Shown: one piece after another, positions 1,729-53,167 of the stretch
How the letters are laid out: each line of letters begins with the position of its first letter
Position numbering within the stretch: position 1 is the stretch's first letter
Assembly (NCBI GenBank): GCA_024239075.1
Contig: JANBVI010000063.1
Location: 1-64,000, forward strand
Direction of reading: 5' to 3'
Source: Fischerella sp. CENA71
GTDB lineage: Bacteria; Cyanobacteriota; Cyanobacteriia; Cyanobacteriales; Nostocaceae
DNA length: 64,000 nt
The notes under the pieces: generated by a model
What the model was told of the DNA's origin: nothing
The model's input: only the letters and a program-made list of their open reading frames with translations
Databases searched by the model: none
Position numbers and translations under genes: made by a program

Positions 1729-2751
1729 ATGCAATTAAAGCCCATTAATCAGCAAGTAGTCTCGGTGGTTGGTGCTTCCAGTGGTATCGGACGGTTAACA
1801 GCACTGAAGTTTGCCAAACGTGGTGCCAAAGTAGTAATTGCTGCTCGTAGCGAAGCGGGGCTAAAGTCTTTAGGAGATGAGATTCAAGGTTTTGGTGGTG
1901 AGGCTACATATGTAGTTGCAGATGTGAGTGATGCCCAACAAGTCAAAGCGATCGCAGACAAAACGGTAGCCGAATATGGACGGTTAGATACTTGGGTTCA
2001 TCTTGCTGCTACAGGTATAATTGCACCTTTTGAGAAAATCACACCAGAGGAATTTGAACGAGTTGTTGATGTGACTTTGATGGGACAGGTATATGGTGCA
2101 ATGGCAGCATTACCCCATCTGAAAAAAGAGGGACGTGGGGCGTTAATTCATATATCCTCAATGGAAGGTAGGCGAAGTTTGCCATTGCAAAGTCCCTACT
2201 CGACTGCTAAACATGGTTTAGAAGGTTTTTTAGATGCTTTAAGGGTCGAGTTACAGTACGAAAAATGGCCCATCAATGTGACATCAATCTTGCCTGCAAC
2301 AATAAATACACCTTTCTACAACAAAGTCGGCACTAAACTAGGGGTAAAGCCAACTGGTATACCACCCTACTATCAACCTGAGATTGTTGCTGATGCTATC
2401 CTTTACGCTGCCGAACATCCTATGCGTGATTTTATCGTCGGCGATGCTGGCAAGGCGTTAGATATTTTACAAAAAATTTCGCCTGCTTTTGCAGATACAC
2501 TACTGACAACGATTGCTTTTGCAGGACAGCATACGGCTGAACCAAAGTCAGAAGACGATCCAAATAATGTTTTTGCACCAATCTCAGGCTATGATCGCGT
2601 GGAAGGAGACTTTAATCAGCTAGCAATACCCTCTTTCTTGGATTGGTTAGATATGAATCCCCCATTGAAGTGGGGAGTAGTAGCATTAGCTGCATTAGGC
2701 ATTGTAGCATTTTTGGGCGGATGGCAACTCCCCAGACCTGAAGGGCGGTGA
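1729..2751 (+). CDS. Short-chain dehydrogenase/reductase with C-terminal membrane anchor
   Basis: A classical SDR of 340 aa. The cofactor motif GASSGIG is at residues 15-21, the active-site Ser at 143/144 (HISSMEG), and the catalytic pair Tyr157/Lys161 lies in SPYSTAKHG. The usual NNAG is replaced by HLAAT (91-95). It is about 90 residues longer than a classical SDR. The extra C-terminal part ends in a hydrophobic helix of about 20 residues (315-334), so the enzyme is probably membrane-attached with a cytosolic catalytic domain. NAD(P)-dependent oxidoreductase activity is expected from the family; the substrate is unknown. It appears monocistronic. Confidence 0.85.
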   Translation: MQLKPINQQVVSVVGASSGIGRLTALKFAKRGAKVVIAARSEAGLKSLGDEIQGFGGEATYVVADVSDAQQVKAIADKTVAEYGRLDTWVHLAATGIIAPFEKITPEEFERVVDVTLMGQVYGAMAALPHLKKEGRGALIHISSMEGRRSLPLQSPYSTAKHGLEGFLDALRVELQYEKWPINVTSILPATINTPFYNKVGTKLGVKPTGIPPYYQPEIVADAILYAAEHPMRDFIVGDAGKALDILQKISPAFADTLLTTIAFAGQHTAEPKSEDDPNNVFAPISGYDRVEGDFNQLAIPSFLDWLDMNPPLKWGVVALAALGIVAFLGGWQLPRPEGR

Positions 2752-2759
2752 TTCTAGGC

Positions 2760-2969
2760 TCAAACAGCAATTACAAGCTTCCAGAACCAATCACGCATTT
2801 GATGAGAAATATCCTCATGCTTGCGTACTAGGTTCTTCCTAGCCCATTCCCGATGAGATTGGGCTTTTAGTTTTTTGGTGTATTGTCTACTTGCTTCCTT
2901 AATTGGTGGTAACAGACAACTTGAAATATTGAGATGACTCAATCTAAGAGCCATGATAAATACATACAA
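2760..2969 (-). pseudogene. Possible TnpB (IS200/IS605 OrfB) fragment
   Basis: Only about 69 codons are open. The segment with AQSHREWARKNLVRKHEDIS followed by HQMRDWFWKL resembles the N-terminal third of TnpB/OrfB, where a run of basic residues is followed by an I(A/S)xxRxDWFWKL-type motif. The RuvC-like catalytic part and the zinc ribbon are absent, so it would be a decayed fragment. No left or right IS end is visible. Identification rests on a short motif from memory and needs a profile search. Confidence 0.35.
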
Positions 2970-3135
2970 ATAATTTACATTTGCATAGTAGTTTATTTAC
3001 ATAATATTTATAAATCAGTGATTTTTCTCTGGAAACAGACGTTAGATTTAAAAAATAGTCGTTTTGGAGCAATAAGTAAATTAATTGCCACGTTAGTTAA
3101 AGTAACTTGTTAAGATTTACGACTAAAATTGCCTT

Positions 3136-5724
3136 ATGTTAAGCAGACATCGGGTATCGAATATCCGACGCTTATTGCAGTTTTTATTTATATGCATTTT
3201 TGCCTGTGGCTTATGCATAAAATATTTTCCGTCATGGGTCAGAATATTTAGCGAAGCAATTCCGGTACAAACACAAACAATAGTTAAAAATGAGTACAAT
3301 CAGGACTTTCTCGCTCCAGCTAGTGATTTTAGTCAACTACTAGAACAAGCTTGGAAAAAATATGAAGCTAGAAATATGCAAGATGCGATCGCACATCCAC
3401 AAATAGCTTCAAATACAACCATTGTCGAGAATTTGGTAAGTGTATATCACGAAATAGGTGAGTCGAAAAAAGCGATCGCCTACTATCGTCAAATTAACAA
3501 CTGGTCAAAGGTAGGACTAATTATCATCGAGCAAGCACAAGCATACAATAAGCTGGGTAAACCAAATTATGGGAGGATGCTTTCTGAAATTGCTTTACAA
3601 ATTGCTCATACTTACAATGATGATGGTTTAGAGTCTGCTGCCTTTCGTGTTAGAGGTGAAGCTCATCGAATCGCAGGTAACTATTACAAAGCGATTAATG
3701 ATTTAACTTTTAGCATTAACCTTGCTCAGGATACTCATAATTTAGAATATCAAACTGCTGCTTTAAATCAATTAGGAATTACTTATATAAATTTGGCTCA
3801 AACAAATTATAAATATGCCAAAACAGCTTTGAATGCAGATGATAATAATCAAGCTCAATATTTTCAAAAGCAAGCACAGATATTTGATTTAAAAGCTTTA
3901 GCAATTTTCCAGGATAGTTCAACTATTTCTCGACAATACAAAGATAAGATTAACGAAATTAACTTATTAATAGATTCGATTCCACCTGCCAGTCGGCTTG
4001 GGAAATCACAATTAGTCACGGCAAAATTACAACTAGTTTTATTGTTATTAAAAAGTTTACCAATTTCCGATGCTAAAGCTGATGCAGCTATTAATGTATC
4101 TGAAGTATTGCAATATTTAGCATCTGAACAAAATTTGGATTTTGCCAAATGTCCAGCTAATTACCGAGAATCACAAGCGATTGATTTACTCAATGAAGCT
4201 GTATCAATTTCTCAAATTTTGTCAAACTATCGTGCTTTATCTTTTGCTTTTGGTCATCTCGGTCATATCTATGAGTGTAAACACAACTATGAGCAAGCAC
4301 TAAAATTAACGCAACAAGCACAACAAGCTGCACAAATAAAACCGAATGCTCAAGATAGTTTGTATTTATGGTATTGGCAAGCAGGAAGAATTTTAAAATC
4401 ACAAAATCGACCAATGGAAGCGATCGCAGCTTATGAAAAAGCTGTGTCTACTCTTGAAAATATCTCCACTCAGATAGTTGTTACTAATCCAGATTTACAG
4501 CTAGATCCTTATGATACTTTGGAATGGATTTATCACGAGTTGATCGCACTCAAGTTAACTCTAGAAGATAATGAGGGTGAATCAAGTCATCTTTATTCTG
4601 CAATCACTAGCCTTGATGCTCTTAAACTAGCAGAAATCCGAAATTATTTCCGCAATGATGATGTTTCTATCACACTTCATCAAGCCAAAGCCGATTTACT
4701 AAGTAGTAAGACAATTACGGCTGTATTTTGGTCAATTGTATTAGAAGACCGTAGTGCAATTGTAGTTTATCTTCCTAATGGTGAGACCAAATTAGAATGG
4801 ATTAAACTTGATCGTCAAAGCTTCAAAGATGAAATCAACAAATTTCGCCTTGGGCTAGAGAGACGTAGTGATATCATTTATCATCGCAGCCAAGCACAAA
4901 AGCTATATGATTTGATTATTCGTCCTTTTGCTGTTGATTTAGAGTCACTACAAGTAAAAACACTAGTTTTTATTCCAGACAGTTTTCTCCGTAGTGTACC
5001 AATGGCAGCACTACATGACGGAAATGATTTTCTCATTCAAAAATATGCGATCGCATCTACCCCTAGTTTGAGTTTGACAGATCCATTCAAACTCAAATCT
5101 GAAAAATTCAGAGCATTAGCTGTGGGGTTGACTCAAGATGCAAAGATGGATGGCCGCATATATAAAGCTTTGAGTAATATCAAACAAGAAATCAAACAGG
5201 TTTTGATGTTGATACCGGGTAGCAAACAGTTATTAGATGAGAATTTCACACGCGATCGCTTGCAAGCAGAACTCCAGCGCAGTGTTTATTCAATAGTTCA
5301 TATTGCTACTCATGCTGAATTTGGTATTGCTCCCGAAGATACATTTCTGCTCATGGGTAACAACGAAAAGCTTACCATTAGAGACTTGTATGGTATCATT
5401 CAAGCTGTCTCACAAGGTCTAAATACAGTCGATTTATTGTTATTAACTGCTTGTGAAACTGCCCGTGGAAATGATAATACTAACTTGGGTCTAGCTAGTA
5501 TGGCAGTTTCCGCAGGTGTGAGAAGTACTTTTGCTTCTCTATGGTCAATCGATGATGCAGCTACAGAGATTTTAGTCACAAAATTTTATCAATACTGGCA
5601 TCATTACGGTTTTAGTAAAGCAGAAGCTTTGCAAAAAGCCCAGCAAGACCTGATTGCTTTAGGGAAAAAATATGCTCATCCTTATTATTGGGCGCCTTTT
5701 ATTCTTCTAGGTAACTGGTTGTAG
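3136..5724 (+). CDS. TPR-CHAT domain protein (caspase-like peptidase family)
   Basis: An 862-aa protein. Residues about 12-35 form one hydrophobic anchor. Residues about 60-480 hold degenerate TPR helices (for example IAYYRQINNWSKVGLIIIEQ and RPMEAIAAYEKAVSTL). The C-terminal third is a CHAT domain with the His motif VHIATHA (candidate catalytic His726) and the Cys motif LLLTACETARG (Cys773), then the usual FASLWSIDD and YYWAPFILLGNW ending. CHAT domains are the caspase/separase-clan domains first named from HetF. Both dyad residues are present, so it may be an active peptidase facing the cytosol or the periplasm. The partner is unknown; TPRs suggest protein recruitment. Confidence 0.85.
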   Translation: MLSRHRVSNIRRLLQFLFICIFACGLCIKYFPSWVRIFSEAIPVQTQTIVKNEYNQDFLAPASDFSQLLEQAWKKYEARNMQDAIAHPQIASNTTIVENLVSVYHEIGESKKAIAYYRQINNWSKVGLIIIEQAQAYNKLGKPNYGRMLSEIALQIAHTYNDDGLESAAFRVRGEAHRIAGNYYKAINDLTFSINLAQDTHNLEYQTAALNQLGITYINLAQTNYKYAKTALNADDNNQAQYFQKQAQIFDLKALAIFQDSSTISRQYKDKINEINLLIDSIPPASRLGKSQLVTAKLQLVLLLLKSLPISDAKADAAINVSEVLQYLASEQNLDFAKCPANYRESQAIDLLNEAVSISQILSNYRALSFAFGHLGHIYECKHNYEQALKLTQQAQQAAQIKPNAQDSLYLWYWQAGRILKSQNRPMEAIAAYEKAVSTLENISTQIVVTNPDLQLDPYDTLEWIYHELIALKLTLEDNEGESSHLYSAITSLDALKLAEIRNYFRNDDVSITLHQAKADLLSSKTITAVFWSIVLEDRSAIVVYLPNGETKLEWIKLDRQSFKDEINKFRLGLERRSDIIYHRSQAQKLYDLIIRPFAVDLESLQVKTLVFIPDSFLRSVPMAALHDGNDFLIQKYAIASTPSLSLTDPFKLKSEKFRALAVGLTQDAKMDGRIYKALSNIKQEIKQVLMLIPGSKQLLDENFTRDRLQAELQRSVYSIVHIATHAEFGIAPEDTFLLMGNNEKLTIRDLYGIIQAVSQGLNTVDLLLLTACETARGNDNTNLGLASMAVSAGVRSTFASLWSIDDAATEILVTKFYQYWHHYGFSKAEALQKAQQDLIALGKKYAHPYYWAPFILLGNWL

Positions 5725-7414: not shown

Positions 7415-8155
7415 TTAAAAATCATATTTTTCTAGAGCAATTAGATATACATCCTTAATTTGTGGTGACTTTTCTAAGTTAGCTAGGTCTTTTAATAAAT
7501 TTATTGCTAGTTTTCCCAATTGGCCATCACGAGTATTCGCTAAAGCTTCAGCCAAGGCATCGTACCACATCCCAGCTTCAGCATAGAGGCTAGCTCTTTG
7601 GGTGCGATCGTATTTTCGATGGAGTGCATTTTGCAAACTGGCTGGTATGGGTACAATAGCAATGTCTGCTGTCGCAAGTAAATTGTGTGAAGGATGGTTA
7701 AAATCACATAAAATTTCTACCTGCCATATATAATTTTTACCTAAGACTAAACCAGGCAAATTTTCTGGGACAGATAGTTTCATAATCCCTGGAGAACTTT
7801 GTAATCGAGATTTATAAGTTAGTTTCGGTTGTTCGTTACTGCTTAACTCATAAATAGAAAATTCTAGCGGGATTTGTGGGTGATGAGGTACAAACCAAGC
7901 GAAAGTAGGATGGGTTGAAGTGGTTTGTCCAATGTGTGTAACAGGAGCAAGCAGGGTTATAGAATCAGCATCACTAGCTTTGCATGTTCCCCTAGTTCCC
8001 GATGATTCTGTATAACCACTTGGTGGTTTTTGATCTGGGGGGGGTTTATATGCAGCTAAAGTTACCTGGTTAAATGAGAAGGGAATGGTCAAAGCACAAA
8101 TTGTTAATATCTTTAGATTAAAAACTTTGTGCAAGAGCCACTGTGTGTGAGTCAT
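7415..8155 (-). CDS. DUF928 family exported protein
   Basis: A 246-aa protein using the ATG at 8155, preceded by GAGGG at seven bases; the upstream ATG at 8173 has no ribosome site. It has an N-terminal signal-like hydrophobic segment ending near FNQVTLAA, then a Pro-rich stretch, then the family core: SGTRG, LLAPVTHIGQTTSTHPTFAW and a long beta-rich middle. It ends with helices (RASLYAEAGMWYDALAEALA) resembling a TPR-like cap. The biochemical function of DUF928 is unknown. Families of this kind often accompany CHASE2 and CHAT genes in cyanobacteria, which fits the neighbouring CHASE2 kinase. Confidence 0.8.
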   Translation of the reverse strand: MTHTQWLLHKVFNLKILTICALTIPFSFNQVTLAAYKPPPDQKPPSGYTESSGTRGTCKASDADSITLLAPVTHIGQTTSTHPTFAWFVPHHPQIPLEFSIYELSSNEQPKLTYKSRLQSSPGIMKLSVPENLPGLVLGKNYIWQVEILCDFNHPSHNLLATADIAIVPIPASLQNALHRKYDRTQRASLYAEAGMWYDALAEALANTRDGQLGKLAINLLKDLANLEKSPQIKDVYLIALEKYDF

Positions 8156-8437
8156 TATTTTCCCTCTTGGCATTGCACTAAAAAAAATATACTTATTGGT
8201 AGATGTAGGTAGTTAGTAATTGGTATTTATTTTTTATTGCCATTAACCATAGACAATTAGCAATTGGTTATACCTGATTGCTTATTACCGTTACTGACAA
8301 GAAAGTATTTTTTGTTAACCACGCTACAGAATATACTTTCATTCTATTACTAGTAAATGGCTAAATTCATTTCAGATTTTAGCCATTTCTATTGCAGAAA
8401 AATACATAAAAAATGTTTTGATTCTTAATAAAAACAT

Positions 8438-10324
8438 TTACCAAAAACCTAATTTTGGTACAGGCCAAGATAATTCACAAAGAGTACCGCGAGGAGAAAG
8501 AGGCGATCGCGTAAATTTTCCTCTGAGTTGTCTAGCTAAATCTCTAAATTGTTGTGTTCCCCGACCTTCTTTAGCAGAAATGCTACCTAAGCCATCATCG
8601 ACTATTTTCAAAGTGTACCACCCTTCGTTTTGGGTACAACTTACCTCTAAGCGAGTTACACCTGTGGCGTGTTTACCAACATTACACAAAGCTTCTTCTA
8701 AAAATCTACAAAGTCCACGTTTTTGGTCAATACTTAAGTGATAATCATCAATAGGATCAAATGTTACTATTTTAATCCTAAGTGTATTAAAACAGGAAAA
8801 TTCGCGCTGTAATGTATGGTCATAAACTTGATAAAGAACCGTATGAATAGGCTCTTGTAAATTTAGCAGTAAACCTTTTCCTAAATAAAGACTTCTATCT
8901 TGAGTTAGAGGTTCTCTTTGTAAAAATTCATATATTCCCCGTAATTCATAGTTTAATTTTTCTAAATCTTTTTCAAGTACTGGTAGTAATTCTTCTGGCG
9001 ATAAATCATGTTCGCGAATTCTTTTCAATGCTTTAGCTAGGGTTTGCAATGGACCATTATGAATTGTTTCAAAAGTACGTTCTATTAGTGCTTGACGGGC
9101 TTCGATTCGAGAACGCAATGCTTGATCATATTGATATAAAGCCGTCATTGTAAAACCATTCAAATTGAAAACGAGAATTGCTGGTATTAGTGGAACCCAC
9201 AAACCCCAAAGCAACAAAAGTAAATAACTAACAATTGTTAAAATGATGCTAGCAATCACAACAGCGACAAGATTTCGCCATGGGGACTTGGTAAGTCTAG
9301 CAAAAGCAATTCCTAAAATCCCCCAGCTGATGATCCATGCATATTCCCAGTAGTCTGTCCAAGTATTCAAAAGTGGTCTAGAATTTAACACGGCACTAAT
9401 GATTGCAGAACTTGTATGTGCTTGAAGTTCCACTCCATAAATGCGTCCCTCAGCAGGTTGTATGGATGTGACAGCAGAAGTAGTGATGAAGTCTTTGACA
9501 CTAGGAGCAGTTACACCAATAATTGCGATGCGATCGCGTATCCACTGCGGCTGATATCTTCCGTTTTTAATATCATTCAGAGATAAAATTCTAAATCTTT
9601 TGGAACCACTGCGAAAATTGAGTAGTATCTGTACTCCACCAGCATCAGTTCTGACATATCCCCCAGAATTAGGCAAAAACCGGGGTAATTCAATATTTCC
9701 GAACCTCATAGCTTCAGGATCACGAATACCATTCTCTAGACTATAACCTTCCTTTGCTAAGTAAGTTTTTGCTAAACAAACAGACAAAGAAAACTTGTAT
9801 TCTTTATCTGTTGGTGTTCCTAATAAACTACGTCGTAATTTCCCATCAGCATCAATAATTTGGTCTGCAAAACAAACTTGTTCTGACGGTAATATTGGCG
9901 GAGGAGCAATTTTTTCGGGTAAGACTTTTTCAATAGCAAATAAATTTTTAATATCTCTAAATGCACTAATCAGTTCAGCATGTCCAGGTTCAACAGGTAA
10001 ATCTTTGACTATATCAAGACCGATGACTCTAGGCGCAAGAGAATTTAGTTTTCTCAGTAGTGCTGCTATTTCTTTGTCTGGTATGGGATATGTTCCAACA
10101 CTCTGGATATCTTCTTCATTAATTCCAACAATCACAATACGTTCGTCAATCGGTTCAGTAGGACGTATACGTAAAAAATTATCATAGGCTAACCACTCTA
10201 GAGACTGCATATGACCACTAAAACGAGTAATTATTACCAGTGCTATGACTGTCATTCCTGGTAATAGACCTACACGCCAAATGATTATTTGCTCTTTAAT
10301 GATTCTCCAAAGTTCAGCCTGCAT
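8438..10324 (-). CDS. CHASE2-domain sensor histidine kinase
   Basis: A 628-aa protein with an N-terminal membrane helix (about 19-34), an extracytoplasmic CHASE2 sensor (about 35-300, including IVIVGINEEDI and RIAIIGVTAPSVKDF), and a block of transmembrane helices (about 320-400). A dimerisation domain follows with phospho-acceptor His422 in ETIHNGPLQTL, then an HATPase (EEALCNVGKHA N-box, KIVDDGLG G1-type box). The H-box and ATPase are of the NarL-partner (HisKA_3-like) type, which matches the LuxR-type regulator 54 bp upstream. The pair probably senses an unknown extracellular cue and may control the adjacent peptide export genes. Confidence 0.88.
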   Translation of the reverse strand: MQAELWRIIKEQIIIWRVGLLPGMTVIALVIITRFSGHMQSLEWLAYDNFLRIRPTEPIDERIVIVGINEEDIQSVGTYPIPDKEIAALLRKLNSLAPRVIGLDIVKDLPVEPGHAELISAFRDIKNLFAIEKVLPEKIAPPPILPSEQVCFADQIIDADGKLRRSLLGTPTDKEYKFSLSVCLAKTYLAKEGYSLENGIRDPEAMRFGNIELPRFLPNSGGYVRTDAGGVQILLNFRSGSKRFRILSLNDIKNGRYQPQWIRDRIAIIGVTAPSVKDFITTSAVTSIQPAEGRIYGVELQAHTSSAIISAVLNSRPLLNTWTDYWEYAWIISWGILGIAFARLTKSPWRNLVAVVIASIILTIVSYLLLLLWGLWVPLIPAILVFNLNGFTMTALYQYDQALRSRIEARQALIERTFETIHNGPLQTLAKALKRIREHDLSPEELLPVLEKDLEKLNYELRGIYEFLQREPLTQDRSLYLGKGLLLNLQEPIHTVLYQVYDHTLQREFSCFNTLRIKIVTFDPIDDYHLSIDQKRGLCRFLEEALCNVGKHATGVTRLEVSCTQNEGWYTLKIVDDGLGSISAKEGRGTQQFRDLARQLRGKFTRSPLSPRGTLCELSWPVPKLGFW

Positions 10325-45029: not shown

Positions 45030-47225
45030 TTATACACTGCGTTTCTCAATTATTTCTCGATACGTAGCCACCGCTTGAGTTGGTATGCGCTTTAAATGCA
45101 AGTCTTTGTCTAGGTCTATGTGGTATAGTCCAAAGTCGCTGGCTGAGTTGAACTTCAAACCCCACTCACGATTAGAGGTTAGACTCCAGCAGACATAACC
45201 TAGCACTTTGACACCCTCGTTACAAGCGCGTTGCACTTGCTGGATGTGCTGACGCAGGTACTCTTCGCGCTTCACACCATCAGCGACATCAACGCAACCA
45301 TTCTCAACAATCATAATCTCTTTGTCTGGGAATAGCTTGGCGTGGAATTTGAGCATATCGTAGAGTACACCAGACCAAACGGGTGCATTGTTATACCGTC
45401 CAAAAGCAGCGTCCATCAATTGTTTAACGCGGTGAATTTGTAAATTGCTAGTACCCCAGTAATAGTCAAATCCGACAAAATCCTGTTGACCGACGCATTC
45501 TTTGGGACAGAGGAATTCTGGTAATTTTCCTGCCATACCAAGGTGCCACCAGTTACTAGTCAAGGATGTTGACAAGATGCTGAAAATCTTCTGCACTGGG
45601 TCAAAGATGCTAACAAGAGAACGCAATAGGGGTAAACGTTGTTCAGACTTGACCGGGCGAAACTGGACTTTGGTGCGATCGCCAAAAATTTGCTCTGCGA
45701 CTGTCCGCGCCAAATCTATTTCCAAACCGCTAAATTCACCTGTTTTTGGGTCACGATAGCCAAAACCGGGGATATTATCTTTGACTGCAACAATTAAATA
45801 ACCCCGATCTTGAATGCGACGTAACGCCGTTCCTGGTTTAGCAAGGGAATTTCCCGCGTCTTCTAGCGTATCTTTACCACTAATATCCCCCAAAGTCGAA
45901 CGTCTACCCATTTTCGGTGGTTCTGGGATCGGTTGACCAGGGAAATGATTGTGAAGGCTTTGTGACCAAGCCCCGGATTCTTTGAAGCGTCGTACTGCTT
46001 GATCTACAGCATTGAGTAAAAAGCGATCGCCTTTGACCACAGCAGCAGCATAGGGTTCTGTTGTCAACCTATGATTAACAATTCGATACTCTTCTGGATG
46101 CTGTTGGATAATTCCTAACAAAATGGCATCGTCAGCCAAGATTGCACTGACTTGATCATAGTCCAAGGCTCGCAGGGCATCTTCGTAATCTGGGAACACC
46201 TCTACATCGGTGTTAGGTAACATTGCGTAGATATTAGTTTCAGCAGTCGTGCTTTTGACAACTGCGACTTTTTTCCCCGCGAAATCACTTAGTTCTTGAA
46301 TTGGACTGCGGAACTTAACCAATAAAACTTCACCTGCTAGATAGTAAACCTCGGAAAATGCCACTTGTTCTTCCCGTTCTTGGTTCACGGTGAGCGTAGC
46401 AATCACTACATCTACTTGTCCTTTTTCTAGTAAAGCCCGTTCGGTGAAGCGTTTACCCTGAGCAATCAAATCTTTTTTGCTGCGAAGACGAGTGATGTTG
46501 GAATCCGCAATTTTTTGCAACCACAGAGGTAAACCTAGTAACATCGGATTGACTCCGACTTGAGCATCTGGGTTAAATTGCTTGAGAGCAGCTCTACCTC
46601 TAGTATGAGCAATGAACAAATTCCGCATCAAATCACCCACTGCTGACATTTGTTCTGACATGGAAGCGCCACGAGGTAGCCCAGGAGGCATAAAATAAGA
46701 CCGTTCCCACCAAGGTTTGACATAGCCGTAAATTAATTGACTAGGTTCATTAAAAGTAATCCAGTAGCGGGCTAAATTACCTAAACGTCTAGCAACTTCT
46801 GTTGCATAACTGGCATAAATCGTAGGAAAATCTTTGGCAATCAGACCACCTCGTTGTTCTACATGTAACGGATGAGTAAAGTGGTGTAGGGTGACAATGG
46901 GTTCCATGCCATAGGAACGGATGGTTTCAATGACTTGGCGGTAGTGGTCAAAAGCTGAATCACTAAACTGTCCTGGTTGCGGTTCTACCCGCGACCAAGC
47001 AATAGAAAAGCGGAACATCTTACAACCAAGAGATTTAGCGAGCGCAATATCTTCAGGATAGCGGTTCCAAAAGTCTGTAGCCTGACCCCGTAGCGTCATC
47101 GCACGACGACGTTCCCAAACATCGCGAATGTCCTCAAAGTTAGCATCATAAGCTTCGCATTGGTGGTCAGCAGAAGCAACACCAAACATAAATGATTCTG
47201 GAAATGGTGTAAGGCCATCGCTCAT
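45030..47225 (-). CDS. Family 1 glycoside hydrolase interrupted by a permuted solute-binding domain
   Basis: A 731-aa chimera. Residues 1-245 are the first part of a GH1 barrel, with FMFGVASADHQ and acid/base Glu160 in ITFNEP. Residues 265-440 match the second lobe of a family-3 (amino-acid) solute-binding protein (VDVVIATLTVNQEREEQVAF, DFAGKKVAVVKSTTAE). Residues 465-536 match its first lobe (RGYLIVAVKDNIPGFGYRDP, FSGLEIDLARTVAEQ), i.e. in reversed order. Residues 545-731 resume GH1, with nucleophile Glu641 in IVENG. No signal peptide, so cytosolic. GGAG is eight bases from the ATG. It could be a glycosidase or transglycosylase gated by a small ligand. Last gene of a five-gene operon. Confidence 0.8.
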   Translation of the reverse strand: MSDGLTPFPESFMFGVASADHQCEAYDANFEDIRDVWERRRAMTLRGQATDFWNRYPEDIALAKSLGCKMFRFSIAWSRVEPQPGQFSDSAFDHYRQVIETIRSYGMEPIVTLHHFTHPLHVEQRGGLIAKDFPTIYASYATEVARRLGNLARYWITFNEPSQLIYGYVKPWWERSYFMPPGLPRGASMSEQMSAVGDLMRNLFIAHTRGRAALKQFNPDAQVGVNPMLLGLPLWLQKIADSNITRLRSKKDLIAQGKRFTERALLEKGQVDVVIATLTVNQEREEQVAFSEVYYLAGEVLLVKFRSPIQELSDFAGKKVAVVKSTTAETNIYAMLPNTDVEVFPDYEDALRALDYDQVSAILADDAILLGIIQQHPEEYRIVNHRLTTEPYAAAVVKGDRFLLNAVDQAVRRFKESGAWSQSLHNHFPGQPIPEPPKMGRRSTLGDISGKDTLEDAGNSLAKPGTALRRIQDRGYLIVAVKDNIPGFGYRDPKTGEFSGLEIDLARTVAEQIFGDRTKVQFRPVKSEQRLPLLRSLVSIFDPVQKIFSILSTSLTSNWWHLGMAGKLPEFLCPKECVGQQDFVGFDYYWGTSNLQIHRVKQLMDAAFGRYNNAPVWSGVLYDMLKFHAKLFPDKEIMIVENGCVDVADGVKREEYLRQHIQQVQRACNEGVKVLGYVCWSLTSNREWGLKFNSASDFGLYHIDLDKDLHLKRIPTQAVATYREIIEKRSV

Positions 47226-47336
47226 TATAAAATCTCCTTTTTTTAGTTTTTGAAACGCAGAGGGACGCGGAGTCAGCGCAGAGGGGCGCAGAGTTTTTCC
47301 GAATTTTATTCGCTACGAATTTGTGAAATATTGTAT

Positions 47337-48467
47337 TTAGCTAACTTTTACTGTGCTTTGGTTTATATATTTGGATTGTTGCTTGTTTAAAAATTGCAGC
47401 AGTCTAGGAAAGATATCGATGTGGACGTTTTTACCCATGAATACGTCTTGATGTCCATAACCAGGAAATACATGAAGTTCATGTCTGCCTGGTACAATTT
47501 GTTCAAGTCTTTGGTGACAGACAATATTAGAATCGGTAAATACATGATTGCGATCGCCTGTCATGAATAAAACAGGAGTTTCGATTTCTCCTGCATACTC
47601 AAAATAGTTATTCGGTAGGCGATCGTATTTAGGATTATTTGGCTCAAACTTGACTGCTGTATTATTGTTTTTAACCATTTTGCGGACATGGCGATAGTAA
47701 TGTAACCCGTTTCCGCCGTACAAATCGCCGCCTCGACGATGGGTAACATCATGAAGATTTTCATGGCTGTACAAAGCAGGCCAACCTGTTCCCCACATTA
47801 AACTCAGCATATGGCAAGCTGGGACATCACATTCATGATGAAATGCTGAAACAGCTTTAGAGAAGATTTTGCCTTTTGTTAAACCTGGATCTTCACTCCA
47901 GCGTGGATTTATATAAGGAATTCCCAAAACATATTCGACTAAGAAAGGTGCAAAAGTTAATTTAACTTGTGACCAGTTAGGCACACGTGGAGTTAATGCC
48001 ACACTATTAGCAATCACGCTGGAAATACCCGTGACAGCTTTGGCAAATAGGCTCATGACAAAGGATACAGAACCTAAACAATGACAGATCACATGGATAC
48101 GGCGATCGCCTATGTGTTCACGCATCTTCGCGATCGCCGCCGGATGATCAAACAGTGCAATATCATCCATGTTGTAGCGATGCATCTGCAAGTTATACGA
48201 ATGTCTATTACTCATGCGATAATCTAAAGTCCAAACATCACCAAACCCGTTGTCCAACAAATACTGCACGAAATTGTAATGTTCAGGCATGATAAACATA
48301 TCAGTTGATGTAGTCAAACCGTGAATAATCAAAACTACATCATCAGAAGTTGCACGTTGGAAGCGTAACATACTCAGTCCCAACATATCTTCTGTAGAAA
48401 AGTGATGTGTAGAAATTTCTGCATTCTTCACACCTTCTAAAGTATAAAGTGGTATGTCACGTTTCAT
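47337..48467 (-). CDS. Alpha/beta hydrolase with Cys nucleophile
   Basis: A 376-aa alpha/beta hydrolase fold. The oxyanion region is LIIHGLTTSTDMF (about 46-58), the nucleophile elbow is ICHCLGS with Cys130 in place of the usual Ser, the acid lies near FMTGDRNHVF, and His is in PGYGHQDVFMG. This type is related to hydrolase modules found with or fused to cholesterol-oxidase-like GMC enzymes, and a GMC gene is in the same operon. A Cys nucleophile is seen in dienelactone-hydrolase-like enzymes. Probably hydrolyses or transfers an ester or lactone. GAGG seven bases before the ATG. No export signal. Confidence 0.8.
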   Translation of the reverse strand: MKRDIPLYTLEGVKNAEISTHHFSTEDMLGLSMLRFQRATSDDVVLIIHGLTTSTDMFIMPEHYNFVQYLLDNGFGDVWTLDYRMSNRHSYNLQMHRYNMDDIALFDHPAAIAKMREHIGDRRIHVICHCLGSVSFVMSLFAKAVTGISSVIANSVALTPRVPNWSQVKLTFAPFLVEYVLGIPYINPRWSEDPGLTKGKIFSKAVSAFHHECDVPACHMLSLMWGTGWPALYSHENLHDVTHRRGGDLYGGNGLHYYRHVRKMVKNNNTAVKFEPNNPKYDRLPNNYFEYAGEIETPVLFMTGDRNHVFTDSNIVCHQRLEQIVPGRHELHVFPGYGHQDVFMGKNVHIDIFPRLLQFLNKQQSKYINQSTVKVS

Positions 48468-48563: not shown

Positions 48564-49526
48564 CTAACCATTCATCATCTCCTGCAACCCCATTTCTTTT
48601 GTCACAATAGGTTTATAACCCAACTCCCGTTTCACTTTAGAAATATTGTATTTTCTCGGCATAGCCACAAAAGAAATTTCAAATCGAGAAAGAGGAGGCA
48701 CAGTTTTAATATTGAATAATTTCCAGATTGCTTCTACAATACTTGCCAGAGGATTAACAATAAAACTTGGTAAATTAGTATTTGGAGGATTAATCCCACT
48801 GATTTTGAAAAGTTTAGTAAAGTAATCTTTCACAGTTATTGGCTCATCATCGGTAACTATATATATTTCTTTATTTTCTCCTTTGACACAAGCTAAAGAT
48901 ATTGCTTCTACTAGATTATCAACGTGAACTGTTTCAATTACGCATTCACCGTTATCTATCCATAAAAATTGTCCAGACTTAACTTTCTCAGCTAAGGTTT
49001 GGGGAGTTTTATCACCTTTACCCCAAATATAAGTAGGACGCAGGATAATACATGTCATATCTGTAGAAAAATTTAAAATTTCTGCTTCTGCTAATTTTTT
49101 AGCTTTGCCATAGTAGGAATTCGGTTCTGCTGGATAAGGATATGTTTCATCTATATCAATTAAAGGAGAAACATCCTGTAAAACTGATTCGGAACTAATA
49201 TAGATGAATTTTTTCACATTCATCTTACTAGCACTAATTAATAAGTTTTTTGTCGCCAGAGTAATTTCTCGATAAAACTTTTCCCAGGGACCCCAAAATT
49301 CAACTGGTGCAGCACAATGAATTACAATATCTTGCCCTAAAAGTAGCGCTTCCCATTCGTTAATATTGTCTAAATTACCTTTAATAACTTTTGCGCCTAA
49401 CTGCTCAATTGTTTTCTGTGCAGAATTAGACCTAGCCAAAGCCGTAACATTGTTATGATCACTAACTAAACGTTTGATTAATCTCTTACCAAGAAAGCCT
49501 GAACCGCCTGTGACAAAAATATTCAT
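48564..49526 (-). CDS. NAD-dependent epimerase / 3beta-hydroxysteroid-dehydrogenase-like protein
   Basis: A 320-aa extended SDR from the ATG at 49526 (GAGG upstream). The cofactor motif is VTGGSGFLG; the active site has the Ser of YISSESV and Tyr/Lys in SYYGKAKK; RPTYIWGKGD follows. The balance of motifs favours the 3beta-HSD/sterol C4-decarboxylase-like branch rather than sugar epimerases. Substrate inference: a hydroxylated polycyclic lipid or terpenoid, consistent with the GMC oxidase in the operon. The middle gene of five, gaps of about 96 and 157 bp. Confidence 0.82.
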   Translation of the reverse strand: MNIFVTGGSGFLGKRLIKRLVSDHNNVTALARSNSAQKTIEQLGAKVIKGNLDNINEWEALLLGQDIVIHCAAPVEFWGPWEKFYREITLATKNLLISASKMNVKKFIYISSESVLQDVSPLIDIDETYPYPAEPNSYYGKAKKLAEAEILNFSTDMTCIILRPTYIWGKGDKTPQTLAEKVKSGQFLWIDNGECVIETVHVDNLVEAISLACVKGENKEIYIVTDDEPITVKDYFTKLFKISGINPPNTNLPSFIVNPLASIVEAIWKLFNIKTVPPLSRFEISFVAMPRKYNISKVKRELGYKPIVTKEMGLQEMMNG

Positions 49527-49683
49527 CAAGCACCTCGATTAGAAATATGTCACTGCTATACGCCCTTCTACCTACAATTCATAGGTAGTGATTTCCAGAA
49601 ATGGTCAGTGGTTAGTGGTTTTTCATTGTTGTTGGATGTTGATTAACCATGCCCAATCTCCACATCTTTATAATTTTAAGGTA

Positions 49684-50748
49684 TTAAGCAACACAAATAC
49701 TATACATAGGTAATAATTCGTGAATTATGTAAAAGTGATGTGCTTGTAAAGCATCGTGAAATAGTTTCCAATCACTGGCTAAAAAGGTGCTGTGGTAGGA
49801 AAAAATCTCGTTATCTTGGTCTATATCTGCTTCTGTACCAAGGGCTTGGTATTTCCAAGAATTTTTTCCTTTGGGGATATAGGTGACATATTCTTTACCA
49901 AAACTAAATTTACCTTCAGCGATCGCTTGCAGCCATTGTTTGTGTCTAAATTTACCTTTGTTAGTCGTAATATTTTTGAGCATAGAAGCTATTGTATCCC
50001 GATCAGATTCTGGCAGCCCTGGTACATCTGCATCTGGATTACCTGCCACATAACGTTGCATGGCTTTACACATATGCTCTGCTGCTTCCAGAAAATCTTT
50101 AGGATTGTCTCTGGTAATTTTCTCGCCTCGTCCATTGGTGTAACCCCAACGTAAGTAAGGTTTGTCTGGATGACTCAGAACTGCGCCGTGTCCCAGGGGT
50201 AGAGCTTCACTGACACAATAGTTTTTGAGACGATCCATCAGACTGCGATCGGGATTACCATGTTCATCAACCAGCTTTTTCGCTTCATTAACTCGATGAT
50301 TGACACCCGCAAAACCTTGGTGCGCCCAAGTATCTACATATACATGCATTGTAATTCCCAGACGATGTAGTCCATAGATAGAATCGCGGCGAAGAATGCA
50401 TTCGCTGACCATATCCTGAGCTACATAACTATTGGGACGACAAATGAGCTTGTCAATAAAACTACCTGTAATATTTTCTTCTGCTTTTTTGCCGCCATTT
50501 CCAGGTAGAAAATGAAAGGGAATCCAAACGCGATGATTTGCTAATTCCTTAAAGTTACGGTAGTCAAGCATTTTATGTGCCGAACTCATGCGACTAAACA
50601 GCGCACCGTTATCAAAGCGGATCAGTCCGGCATTGGTGGCATCATCTACGTATTGAGCGCAATATGCAATGATACTAGCGGCTTGATGTTCAAATCCAGC
50701 TAGTCGTGCGACTACGTAAGTAACACCATGATGAAAGTCGATTTGCAT
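49684..50748 (-). CDS. DUF6765 family protein
   Basis: A 354-aa protein starting MQIDFHHGVTYVVARLAGF. His/Asp-rich motifs (DFHHG, YCAQYVDDATN, MHVYVDTWAHQGF, GHGAVLSHPDKPYLRW) resemble zinc-binding sets of phospholipase-C/S1-nuclease-like all-helical enzymes. The DUF6765 assignment is from these motifs. No signal peptide. Whether it is a lipase or a fold relative without catalysis is unknown. It lies 88 bp downstream of the GMC gene. Confidence 0.7.
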   Translation of the reverse strand: MQIDFHHGVTYVVARLAGFEHQAASIIAYCAQYVDDATNAGLIRFDNGALFSRMSSAHKMLDYRNFKELANHRVWIPFHFLPGNGGKKAEENITGSFIDKLICRPNSYVAQDMVSECILRRDSIYGLHRLGITMHVYVDTWAHQGFAGVNHRVNEAKKLVDEHGNPDRSLMDRLKNYCVSEALPLGHGAVLSHPDKPYLRWGYTNGRGEKITRDNPKDFLEAAEHMCKAMQRYVAGNPDADVPGLPESDRDTIASMLKNITTNKGKFRHKQWLQAIAEGKFSFGKEYVTYIPKGKNSWKYQALGTEADIDQDNEIFSYHSTFLASDWKLFHDALQAHHFYIIHELLPMYSICVA

Positions 50749-50836: not shown

Positions 50837-53167
50837 TTAAACGTAAATTTTAGTTAAGGTACCAGCAAAAAAGCGACTAAAGCGATCTATTGCTTGCAGT
50901 TGTTCCCAACGGGTTTTGGCATTAATGACTTTTAAAGTGGTCATTTGCTTAATGAAATCTACCGGTTGAATTTTGAGAATACCTTTACCAATCACAGGAT
51001 TTTTGTTGCTGTCACCTGCATAAACAGTGACGTAGAGAGTGGTGGTGTCAGCCCAGACATCGAAACCTGGATCATCGTGAATTTGCTTAAAGCCTTCAAA
51101 ATAGTAGCTTTGCCCGTTTTCTGCTGTCATGTACATGCCATAGCACATTTTACGGGTTTGCGGCTGATCTTCTGCTTCAATGAATAAATTAAAATCACCC
51201 TTGGTTACTGTCAATGGATCTGAAGAAATTACCGGGGCTGTGACTGTACCAATGATTTTGCCAGGGTGCTGAGGATCGTTTAGCAGTAAATCTATATCAT
51301 CAGCAATGACTGTCACGGTAAATTCTAGAGGTGAGGCATCTTTTTGACCTTGTTGTGCTGCTTTTTGATAGTCATCTTTGACTTTGGTAGAGAAGAAACC
51401 ACGCATCTTTTCTGTGAACTGAATTCCAACTTTGGCTGTGGGTGTGGCGTTGGTTGGTGCTGGTGCAGAAGATAGATCATAGTTAATTGTCCAACCTCGA
51501 TCTTTGGCAATTAAAGCGCAGCAACGTTCAGCAACAGCCGAAATAGTTAGTAGCGGATTAACTCCTAGTGTACGAGGGATTACTGAACCATCAGCAACAT
51601 ACAAATTTTCATAGACATCTGCACCCTGTTGGCTAGAAAATACTTGTCCTTTGTGGTTAACTACACCATGTTCAGCATCTTCTGCTAAGATACAGCCACC
51701 TAAAGGATGAACACTAATCAAGTCGTGACCAAAAACATTACTCCAAATTGGGTTAGGAATTTGCGTACCACCTAAAGGACGGGTTGCTTCTTCTAAGCGA
51801 TCATTGACTCTTTGAAATATGGGTTGTTTACCTACGCCTTCCCATTCGATACTGAGACGATCATTTTCTAAGTACATCCGTCCGGCTGCATCATCATGAG
51901 TCATGACTAAGTAAGTCTGGGTGTTGCGGACTGCACCTGTGTAAGCGCCGTGAGTTAAACTTTCTCCTTCTCGGAGTTTTTCTTGCAAGCGATCGCCTAT
52001 ACCTTGATCGGTATCTTCACCCAAGATTTTACCAGCAGCAGCAAAGCTACTCGGCAGGATCGGAGCAAGTGCGCCAGGAATAGAACCTTCTTCGATCACC
52101 ATACCATTGTCTAAGACGGGCTGTTGGCGCATATCCACAATACCAGTAATGCAAGGCCCTACAGGTTCCTGTTCGTTAGGGAGGCGATCGCCAAAGCCAA
52201 CACCATTAATTACTTGTTCGGTGTTGTATCCAAAAGCCAAGACATCACCGTTACCTGTAAAGTAGTGTCCTAGCTGATCAGATACAGACAAACCCTTGGC
52301 TTGAGAACGCAATAAAATTTCTGTAGACCCCAGTGTACCCGCCGCCAGAATTACCATATCGGCACTGATAAACATTGTCGGCGCGTTGAATTTATCCTGT
52401 CCTGTATTCATTAATTGGTAGTGAACCAACCAACGATTTTCTTGCCGTTCTAAATAACGTACTGATACTTGTGTATATATCTCTGCACCATGATTCTTAG
52501 CATCGGGCAGATAATTCATGAGTACAGTATTTTTAGCTTTATGATTACAACCAGAGACGCAATCACCACAGAGATTACAAGCCTTTTGTTCAACACCTAC
52601 ATGATTCACCCCATCTTTAAAAGTAACGTTAATCGGTGGTCTATAAAACTTCTCATTCAAGTATTTAGCAGATTTCTCTAAGGCTTGTAATTTGTGTATA
52701 TGTGGGAAATTTTGTGGATATGGAGTTGGTTTGAGCATTTCTTCGGCACGCCGATATCCTTCTGCCAATAAAGTATCTACATCATCACGCAATCCTTTCG
52801 GCCAACGGGTATCTGCAAAAACACGAGGTTCGGCTTTCAAAGAGACGTTAGCATTAACTAATGATGTGCCACCTAGACCACAACCTACGAAAACATTAAT
52901 ATCTTTATTAATATGAAAATCATATAAACCTGTGGGTGAACCAATGTGTTTACCACTAAGTAAATCTACTTGCATTTCTTTGACTGCTTCTTTTGGTTCA
53001 TTAGGATATTCCCCAGGTTGAAACTCTTTACCTCTTTCAAGGACACACACCTGTTGTCCCGCACGGGCGAGGCGTGAAGCCGCAATTCCACCCCCATATC
53101 CAGAACCAATTACTACTACTGTGTAGTGATTTTTGATATTTTCAATAGGACTTGATAAACGAGTCAT
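50837..53167 (-). CDS. GMC oxidoreductase, cholesterol-oxidase-like, with CxxCxxCxxxC motif
   Basis: A 776-aa FAD enzyme. The dinucleotide motif GSGYGGG is at 21-27. The FAD-binding VGCGLGGTSLVNANV block follows, and the active-site regions HPLGGC and GVNPLLTISAVAERC carry the catalytic His/Asn. An insert at 197-207 has Cys spaced CxxCxxCxxxC, a pattern able to hold a 4Fe-4S cluster. An extra C-terminal domain (about 575-776, beta-rich) extends it beyond ordinary GMC length. It should oxidise an alcohol on a hydrophobic, possibly steroid-like, substrate. First large gene of the operon, and its ATG overlaps the stop of a small upstream ORF. Confidence 0.85.
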   Translation of the reverse strand: MTRLSSPIENIKNHYTVVVIGSGYGGGIAASRLARAGQQVCVLERGKEFQPGEYPNEPKEAVKEMQVDLLSGKHIGSPTGLYDFHINKDINVFVGCGLGGTSLVNANVSLKAEPRVFADTRWPKGLRDDVDTLLAEGYRRAEEMLKPTPYPQNFPHIHKLQALEKSAKYLNEKFYRPPINVTFKDGVNHVGVEQKACNLCGDCVSGCNHKAKNTVLMNYLPDAKNHGAEIYTQVSVRYLERQENRWLVHYQLMNTGQDKFNAPTMFISADMVILAAGTLGSTEILLRSQAKGLSVSDQLGHYFTGNGDVLAFGYNTEQVINGVGFGDRLPNEQEPVGPCITGIVDMRQQPVLDNGMVIEEGSIPGALAPILPSSFAAAGKILGEDTDQGIGDRLQEKLREGESLTHGAYTGAVRNTQTYLVMTHDDAAGRMYLENDRLSIEWEGVGKQPIFQRVNDRLEEATRPLGGTQIPNPIWSNVFGHDLISVHPLGGCILAEDAEHGVVNHKGQVFSSQQGADVYENLYVADGSVIPRTLGVNPLLTISAVAERCCALIAKDRGWTINYDLSSAPAPTNATPTAKVGIQFTEKMRGFFSTKVKDDYQKAAQQGQKDASPLEFTVTVIADDIDLLLNDPQHPGKIIGTVTAPVISSDPLTVTKGDFNLFIEAEDQPQTRKMCYGMYMTAENGQSYYFEGFKQIHDDPGFDVWADTTTLYVTVYAGDSNKNPVIGKGILKIQPVDFIKQMTTLKVINAKTRWEQLQAIDRFSRFFAGTLTKIYV

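Follow-up and report, generated by a model that had tools for sequence, protein, structure and literature searches.

How simpler parts give rise to allosteric enzymes is still an open question. The closest published insertions joining a flytrap binding protein to an enzyme that were found are, going by the available excerpts of those papers, designed chimeras. The question is raised in a natural setting by a gene of Fischerella sp. CENA71, situated at 45030-47225 (minus strand) of the window, by which we mean the whole stretch of 64,000 nucleotides analysed (contig JANBVI010000063.1, C63, in a genome of 7.47 Mb). The product is a predicted retaining beta-glycosidase of glycoside hydrolase family 1 (GH1), into which a circularly permuted solute-binding protein (SBP) domain is inserted, and the reality of this architecture is as good as certain. 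What the insert does is less firm: that the protein is a GH1 beta-glycosidase, probably cytosolic, with a small-molecule sensor on its rim and gated by a ligand stands at close to an even chance. The parts of the gene are listed below; counts refer to 42 aligned full-length members of the family and to nine relatives that retain only lobe 1 of the flytrap.

45030..47225, minus strand: whole gene, GH1 enzyme with nested circularly permuted SBP domain, 731 codons and stop
47234..47240, minus strand: Shine-Dalgarno-like AAAGGAG, read from the sequence, upstream of the ATG (47225-47223)
46479..47225, minus strand: GH1 N-part, residues 1-249, to strand beta5 and the first hairpin helix 234-245 (Pfam PF00232 at 7-226; model)
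46746..46748, minus strand: putative acid/base Glu160, motif NEP, kept in 42/42 (role by GH1 family knowledge)
46443..46478, minus strand: entry helix 250-261, into the SBP domain (DSSP on the model; similar stretch by sequence in insert-free relatives)
45936..46433, minus strand: SBP C-part, residues 265-430, comprising lobe 1 second half, hinge, lobe 2, hinge and C-terminal helices (Pfam; 5eyf comparison; structural matches)
46374..46376, minus strand: Arg284, presumed equivalent of the ligand-carboxylate Arg of family-3 SBPs (42/42 full-length, 8/9 lobe-1-only)
46059..46331, minus strand: lobe 2, residues about 299-389, absent from nine Eremiobacterota relatives
46131..46133, minus strand: Asp365, presumed equivalent of the ligand-ammonium Asp (D in 41/42, E in 1/42)
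45837..45935, minus strand: linker, residues 431-463, joining the native SBP C- and N-termini (predicted local distance difference test score, pLDDT, <50 at 453-460)
45618..45836, minus strand: SBP N-part, residues 464-536, lobe 1 first half (Pfam; 5eyf comparison)
45636..45638, minus strand: Arg530, aligned with GltI position 75 (42/42 full-length, also 9/9 lobe-1-only)
45567..45617, minus strand: exit helix 537-553, from the broken lobe-1 helix back into GH1 (model; similar stretch by sequence in insert-free relatives)
45030..45566, minus strand: GH1 C-part, residues 554-731 and stop, starting before the NWWHLGMAGKLP motif (Pfam; alignment; model)
45303..45305, minus strand: putative nucleophile Glu641, motif ENG, kept in 42/42 (role by GH1 family knowledge)

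An earlier reading of the DNA letters, here called the sequence-only reading, had reported one continuous frame of 731 codons at this place but gave no strand; the frame is free of stops on the minus strand, and the same span of the plus strand is full of them. The protein matches PF00232 at 190.6 bits (cut-off 22.6) in two stretches, Pfam and NCBIfam matches covering the two halves of the enzyme separately, and the predicted model contains a closed (beta/alpha)8 barrel that superposes on solved GH1 structures, with no unfolded barrel. Q22, H115, N159, E160, Y588, E641, W680, E687 and W688 are invariant in all 42 full-length members (alignment A1). These include both catalytic Glu residues, exactly where the sequence-only reading had put them, and most residues of the GH1 glycone site (Q22, H115, N159, E687 and W688), so that the model and alignment point to an intact barrel and catalytic pair. 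The cut-off of TIGR03356, the GH1 family beta-glucosidase equivalog (478.5), was missed, with 188.9 bits; since the insert-free relatives L054 (194 bits) and L060 (171.1 bits) also fall below it, the insert alone does not explain the low score. No hydrophobic N-terminus or signal peptide was apparent by crude hydropathy, no dedicated predictor being run (highest 11-residue Kyte-Doolittle mean 0.84 among windows starting at residues 1-40). This agrees with the earlier statement that a signal peptide is lacking, and the enzyme is probably cytosolic.

The insert matches PF00497 at 80.8 bits (cut-off 26.4), also in two stretches, which stand in permuted rather than native order. Against the solved SBP 5eyf (245 residues), the later stretch of the query corresponds to residues 8-75 and the earlier one to 73-239; the two join within three residues, so the suggestion that QRLPLLRS would run on naturally into RALLEKG was borne out, and the insert amounts to a near-entire SBP in permuted order. 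Lobe 1 is divided between the two blocks: its second half, together with the whole of lobe 2 and the C-terminal helices, makes up the first (about 265-430), and its first half makes up the second (about 464-536). The two-lobe flytrap fold is present in the predicted model, and alignment and model together indicate a complete flytrap domain of the amino-acid type, circularly permuted in such a way that its new ends lie in one helix of lobe 1 and are the halves of that broken helix. The proposal of a circularly permuted SBP domain nested in GH1 was therefore correct as to order, whereas the 'swapped lobes' of the same proposal did not survive: a swap of whole lobes is ruled out by the 5eyf alignment and the model, which place the permutation point inside the lobe-1 helix. 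Across the family, BLAST against free-standing SBPs gave two segments with the C-part first in 41 of the 42 members when judged by segment ends; a stricter overlap rule scored 29 as permuted and 12 as not, some BLAST segments overrunning the break, and L032 gave one segment.

Within the SBP domain D272, R284, F290, S291, Y294, E502 and R530 are invariant in the 42 full-length members, and position 365 is D in 41 and E in one. We take R284 and D365, from knowledge of the SBP family, to be the contacts of the ligand carboxylate and ammonium groups. The Arg of the N-terminal ligand loop of 5eyf aligns with P486 of the window protein; as that Arg presumably holds acidic side chains, by analogy with GltI, side-chain preference has probably changed, and an amino acid, if one is bound, need not be glutamate. 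Arg530 lies three residues past the equivalent of GltI S72, which in the available excerpt of PMC10942590 contacts the ligand side chain (our own alignment of residues 527-534; GltI numbering taken from the primers in that paper).

The family was drawn from 58 relative-encoding loci, obtained by a pattern scan of an 84,980-species collection limited to genomes with one of six exact peptide patterns. Alignment A1 comprises 41 of these loci and the window gene, all of full length (42 rows); left out were insert-free L050, L051, L053, L054 and L060, lobe-1-only L056, L058 and L064, split or frame-broken L021, L052 and L061, and the fragments L047, L048, L049, L062, L063 and L065. All 42 members match both PF00232 and PF00497 (E 0.001). 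They come from isolates and bins of cyanobacteria (18 with the window gene), Chloroflexi, Eremiobacterota, Verrucomicrobiota (one) and one 'Proteobacteria' bin, a label that may be wrong, as the same genome resurfaced in a sample drawn from the phylum to which a Chloroflexi genome belongs; some bins titled just 'bacterium' fall in the Eremiobacterota clade and are counted with that group in the residue counts below. The architecture thus recurs in other cyanobacteria, where the sequence-only reading had suggested looking for it, and in other phyla too. In the phylum of the window full-length carriers were found in 4 of 386 sampled genomes, all in the same family, and within that family matches (1e-60) occurred in 28 of 218 genomes; 26 of them were full length, that of G942 was split and that of G939 partial. 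Matches at 1e-50 were present in 52 of 149 Eremiobacterota genomes and in 9 of 400 Chloroflexi genomes, the latter some with the insert and some without. No plasmid-borne copy was detected at E 1e-30 among 72,556 plasmid records.

The ratio of non-synonymous to synonymous substitution (dN/dS; Nei-Gojobori, 14 close pairs) was 0.02-0.12 for the GH1 parts, 0.08-0.20 for SBP-C and 0.03-0.18 for SBP-N. These low values in all parts, the confident predicted fold and an architecture shared by 42 aligned members from several phyla, in isolates and bins, leave a fusion artefact, a frameshift or a dead gene with a vanishingly small probability, and for the window gene this explanation is already refuted: its junctions are in frame and conserved, and the 41 other full-length loci together with the low dN/dS rule out a frameshift or assembly error. 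Broken copies do occur. In L021, from the near relative Westiellopsis prolifica, a frame change in the linker, which may reflect a pseudogene or a sequencing error, divides the gene into two pieces (7989-9431 and 9368-10195) that each carry part of each domain; L052, from a Verrucomicrobiota bin, lies in two frames (2618-3700 and 3649-4674) with the middle of the insert unmatched; L061 is frame-broken; and lobe-1-only L162 (G1083) has Ala at the acid/base position, in a stretch that holds undetermined bases.

The site of insertion was located by comparison with relatives that lack the insert. When insert-free L054 is aligned by sequence with the GH1 structure 6z1h, the alignment is interrupted past beta5, between residues 225 and 279 of 6z1h. 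From the VGxNP-type to the NWW-type motif there are 68-78 residues in insert-free L050, L051, L053, L054, L060 and L115, compared with 335 in the window protein, and this short stretch resembles two helical stretches and a short join (a result resting on six of the nine insert-free forms, the motif pair not being found in L116, L117 and L120). The sequences of the inserted forms still show both helical stretches, and the model places helices at 234-245, 250-261 and 537-553. Sequence and model thus indicate that, in the connection that follows beta5, the flytrap replaced the join at the tip of a helical hairpin. This connection lies on the catalytic face of GH1 enzymes. Between the native SBP ends the linker of about 30 residues (pLDDT <50 at 453-460) had, over residues 436-462, the highest dN/dS of five parts in 9 of 13 pairs, was tied at two decimals in two and was lower in two (0.12-0.41).

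Ligand gating is plausible. The broken lobe-1 helix carries both links between flytrap and enzyme, and in GltI it closely follows S72, the ligand side-chain contact of the PMC10942590 excerpt (own alignment). Given the retention of R284 and D365, the ligand on which the two lobes would close is probably a small carboxylate such as an alpha-amino acid or a relative of one. As the helix that carries both links begins next to the ligand pocket, closure of the lobes would tug at hairpin helices 250-261 and 537-553, which in turn may open or close the active-site rim. The wider claim, that this is a natural and widely conserved ligand-gated glycosidase with a circularly permuted flytrap receptor inserted in the active-site rim of a TIM barrel, we put somewhat short of even.

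The same placement, in the connection after beta5, and the same retained amino-acid-type pocket residues could also mean that the flytrap is no switch and instead captures either a portion of the substrate or a second one (an aminoacyl or amino-acid acceptor), which it would pass on to the barrel; the protein would then act as an amino-acid glycoside hydrolase or transglycosylase. Sugar-amino-acid conjugates can be ligands of SBPs with this fold, and the structural matches of the model include SocA with deoxyfructosylglutamine (5lom, 6hqh). However, insert-free relatives keep the same catalytic residues (9/9), which indicates a use of the barrel independent of the flytrap, and we regard substrate delivery as unlikely.

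The tree of the GH1 parts was built from 73 rows, each an open reading frame with both GH1 parts; refetched gene copies, L066-L068 (further cyanobacterial copies), L047, L048 and L061 were dropped. In it 54 family rows (42 full-length, nine insert-free and three lobe-1-only) stand apart from 19 ordinary GH1s with support 100/100. The best tree requires four changes between inserted and insert-free states but a single clade of inserted forms was not rejected (approximately unbiased (AU) test, p 0.308). In genome G393 a full-length permuted form (L027) and an insert-free paralogue (L120/L123) occur together.

Several results weigh against a ligand gate. Nine family members have no insert and keep Q22, H115, N159, E160, E641, W680, E687 and W688 (9/9), so the enzyme can work without it. 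In nine Eremiobacterota forms (L056, L058, L064 and L158-L163; L159 was fetched in part, without its N-part) lobe 2 is almost exactly missing (about 297-390) and lobe 1 is retained. These forms are not one clade, forcing them together costing 78.9 log-likelihood units (AU p 9.7e-6); lobe-2 presence takes four changes by parsimony, of which well-supported branches force at least two, and lobe 2 is therefore dispensable in Eremiobacterota. They keep R284 in 8/9 and E502, R530 and S536 in 9/9, and since these residues persist without lobe 2 they may be structural rather than ligand-binding. The lobe-1-only forms are the strongest evidence against taking the invariant residues as proof of gating. 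In three pairs of full-length Eremiobacterota forms the dN/dS of lobe 2 was 0.23-0.24 against 0.10-0.20 for lobe 1. T327, in lobe 2, was kept in only 1 of the 18 Eremiobacterota-group members, the single Verrucomicrobiota sequence has Val there, and position 527, aligned with the GltI side-chain contact S72, varies. The closed geometry of the model is weak evidence, as AlphaFold2 tends toward closed forms, and some ligand-bound chains fitted it more poorly over longer alignments (2vha, 3.1 A; 5lom, 3.5 A). The junction helices have block-mean pLDDT of just 70-86. In the enzyme part, the Trp that typical GH1s have at position 116 is replaced by F in 24, by N in 17 and by Y in one of the 42 members. 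With nine insert-free relatives and nine without lobe 2, gating is not essential to the enzyme family.

These relatives make a purely structural insert the main rival, one that we consider rather doubtful overall: a lid, dimerisation or docking surface formed mainly by lobe 1, with lobe 2 and the pocket optional or a relic and no ligand gate. Where lobe 2 is absent, in forms that do not make up one clade, lobe 1 persists and remains under constraint (dN/dS 0.08-0.42 in four pairs), which suggests that it has a role of its own; R530, E502 and S536 do not vary, whether lobe 2 is there or not, and some members lack the insert altogether. In contrast, all 23 cyanobacterial and Chloroflexi/'Proteobacteria' members of A1 have the full flytrap, with T327 in 23 and D365 in 22 (E in one); SBP-C shows dN/dS of 0.08-0.12 in eight cyanobacterial pairs; and the carriers in the window's family are full length in 26 of 28 genomes, the other two being split or partial. 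The lobe-1-only forms are compatible with secondary loss of a gate, and equally with a lobe 1 that is structural and a lobe 2 that is optional. A ligand-gated glycosidase remains the single most likely reading, at about an even chance. As for the ligand-gated cytosolic glycosidase of the sequence-only reading, the intact catalytic pair, complete flytrap and lack of an apparent export signal agree with it, and a gate essential to the whole family does not hold.

Compared with GH1 beta-glycosidases (PF00232; 1e4i, 6z1h and the human cytosolic 2e9l), the protein has the complete barrel, both catalytic Glu residues and most of the glycone site, but differs in the flytrap of about 265 residues after beta5, in a clade of its own and in the lack of Trp at position 116. 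A plant-type glycolipid GH1 (SFR2) was considered as closest relative and dropped, the literature search giving nothing. With family-3 SBPs (PF00497; Glu-bound 5eyf, Mycobacterium tuberculosis GlnH 6h1u, PEB1a 2v25 and GltI/DEBP 2vha) it shares both lobes, the hinge, the carboxylate Arg, the ammonium Asp and, in the model, closed-form geometry; unlike them it is permuted inside a lobe-1 helix, has no apparent signal peptide and is nested in an enzyme.

The protein also gave a weak NCBIfam match to the MltF model NF008112. The regulatory domain of MltF is of the SBP type and stands head to tail before a catalytic domain of a different fold, in the envelope. MltF too is a naturally occurring enzyme that cleaves glycans and has an added domain, there a regulatory one, but no SLT-type catalytic domain was among the Pfam matches here and the catalytic part is GH1. 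According to the available excerpt of PMC10746161, MltF is a lytic transglycosylase whose N-terminal regulatory domain, on binding muropeptides, switches it to the active form. In engineered switches, as far as the excerpts go, domain insertion likewise couples a binding protein to an enzyme, in XynA-XBP271 (PMC4896006) and in RG13-type fusions of a permuted beta-lactamase in maltose-binding protein (PMC6335823), the latter also using circular permutation; those are laboratory-made with the enzyme inside the binding protein, whereas here the permuted binding domain lies inside the enzyme. Searches of the open-access PMC literature for this architecture, several of them requiring rare word combinations, turned up no naturally occurring case of a permuted binding protein within an enzyme. 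A chimera that looks designed is natural in several phyla, alongside uninserted and half-inserted relatives, and if the gate is real, nature used the engineers' trick and left natural controls, some insert-free and some that subsequently lost lobe 2, as though the gate had been taken away. With this series one could test directly whether ligand control arises when a domain is inserted in circularly permuted form, and what follows from partial removal; the lobe-1-only forms amount to natural domain-excision experiments, and the protein may serve as a ready-made biosensor scaffold.

In the window the gene comes, on the same strand, after genes for a GMC oxidoreductase, a DUF6765 protein, an NAD epimerase-like protein and an alpha/beta hydrolase. 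Recurrence was counted over 18 fetched cyanobacterial loci, with split L021 included and the window excluded; clusters were named from one member by Pfam/NCBIfam.

47337..48467, minus strand: alpha/beta hydrolase, upstream neighbour (close homologues, 87-97%, in L008, L012 and L021)
48564..49529, minus strand: NAD-dependent epimerase / 3beta-HSD-like protein (cluster in 3/18 loci)
49684..50748, minus strand: DUF6765 protein, function unassigned (cluster in 4/18 loci)
50837..53167, minus strand: GMC oxidoreductase (cluster in 8/18 loci and beside insert-free L054)

A loose single-linkage cluster containing the hydrolase was near the gene in 15 of the 18 loci, not all of its members being hydrolases (that of L011 had no Pfam match), a P450 and a di-haem peroxidase-like gene were near in another eight, and a patatin in five. 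GMC and patatin genes also lie near insert-free L054, and GMC genes near L024 and L025 from Chloroflexi; the best NCBIfam match of the L019 homologue of the GMC oxidoreductase was a cholesterol oxidase model, far below its cut-off. Elsewhere the neighbours are unrelated: GH31 (L023), GH5 (L027), IF-2 and riboflavin kinase (L057) and RtcB (L053). A conserved metabolic neighbourhood was thus found only partly among the selected neighbours scanned, and no ABC transporter part was among the five neighbour genes scanned, genes further off lying outside the scan. From the nearby GMC oxidoreductase, patatin, P450 and hydrolase genes we would guess that the cyanobacterial substrate is a glycoside with a hydrophobic aglycone.

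The genes L011:867-2336 (unnamed, 489 residues) and L011:2369-3940 (di-haem peroxidase-like) recur together upstream in 8 of the 18 cyanobacterial loci, accompanied by a P450 and a lactonase-like gene, an uncharacterised and possibly lipid-oxidising cluster. L030, L031, L033, L035, L036, L042 and L055, of the Eremiobacterota clade, share an upstream cluster whose scanned member (L055) is 2-oxoglutarate dehydrogenase-like. The solved relatives of the insert include M. tuberculosis GlnH, seen bound to Glu and Asp, and this 2-oxoglutarate dehydrogenase-like neighbour is probably a coincidence.

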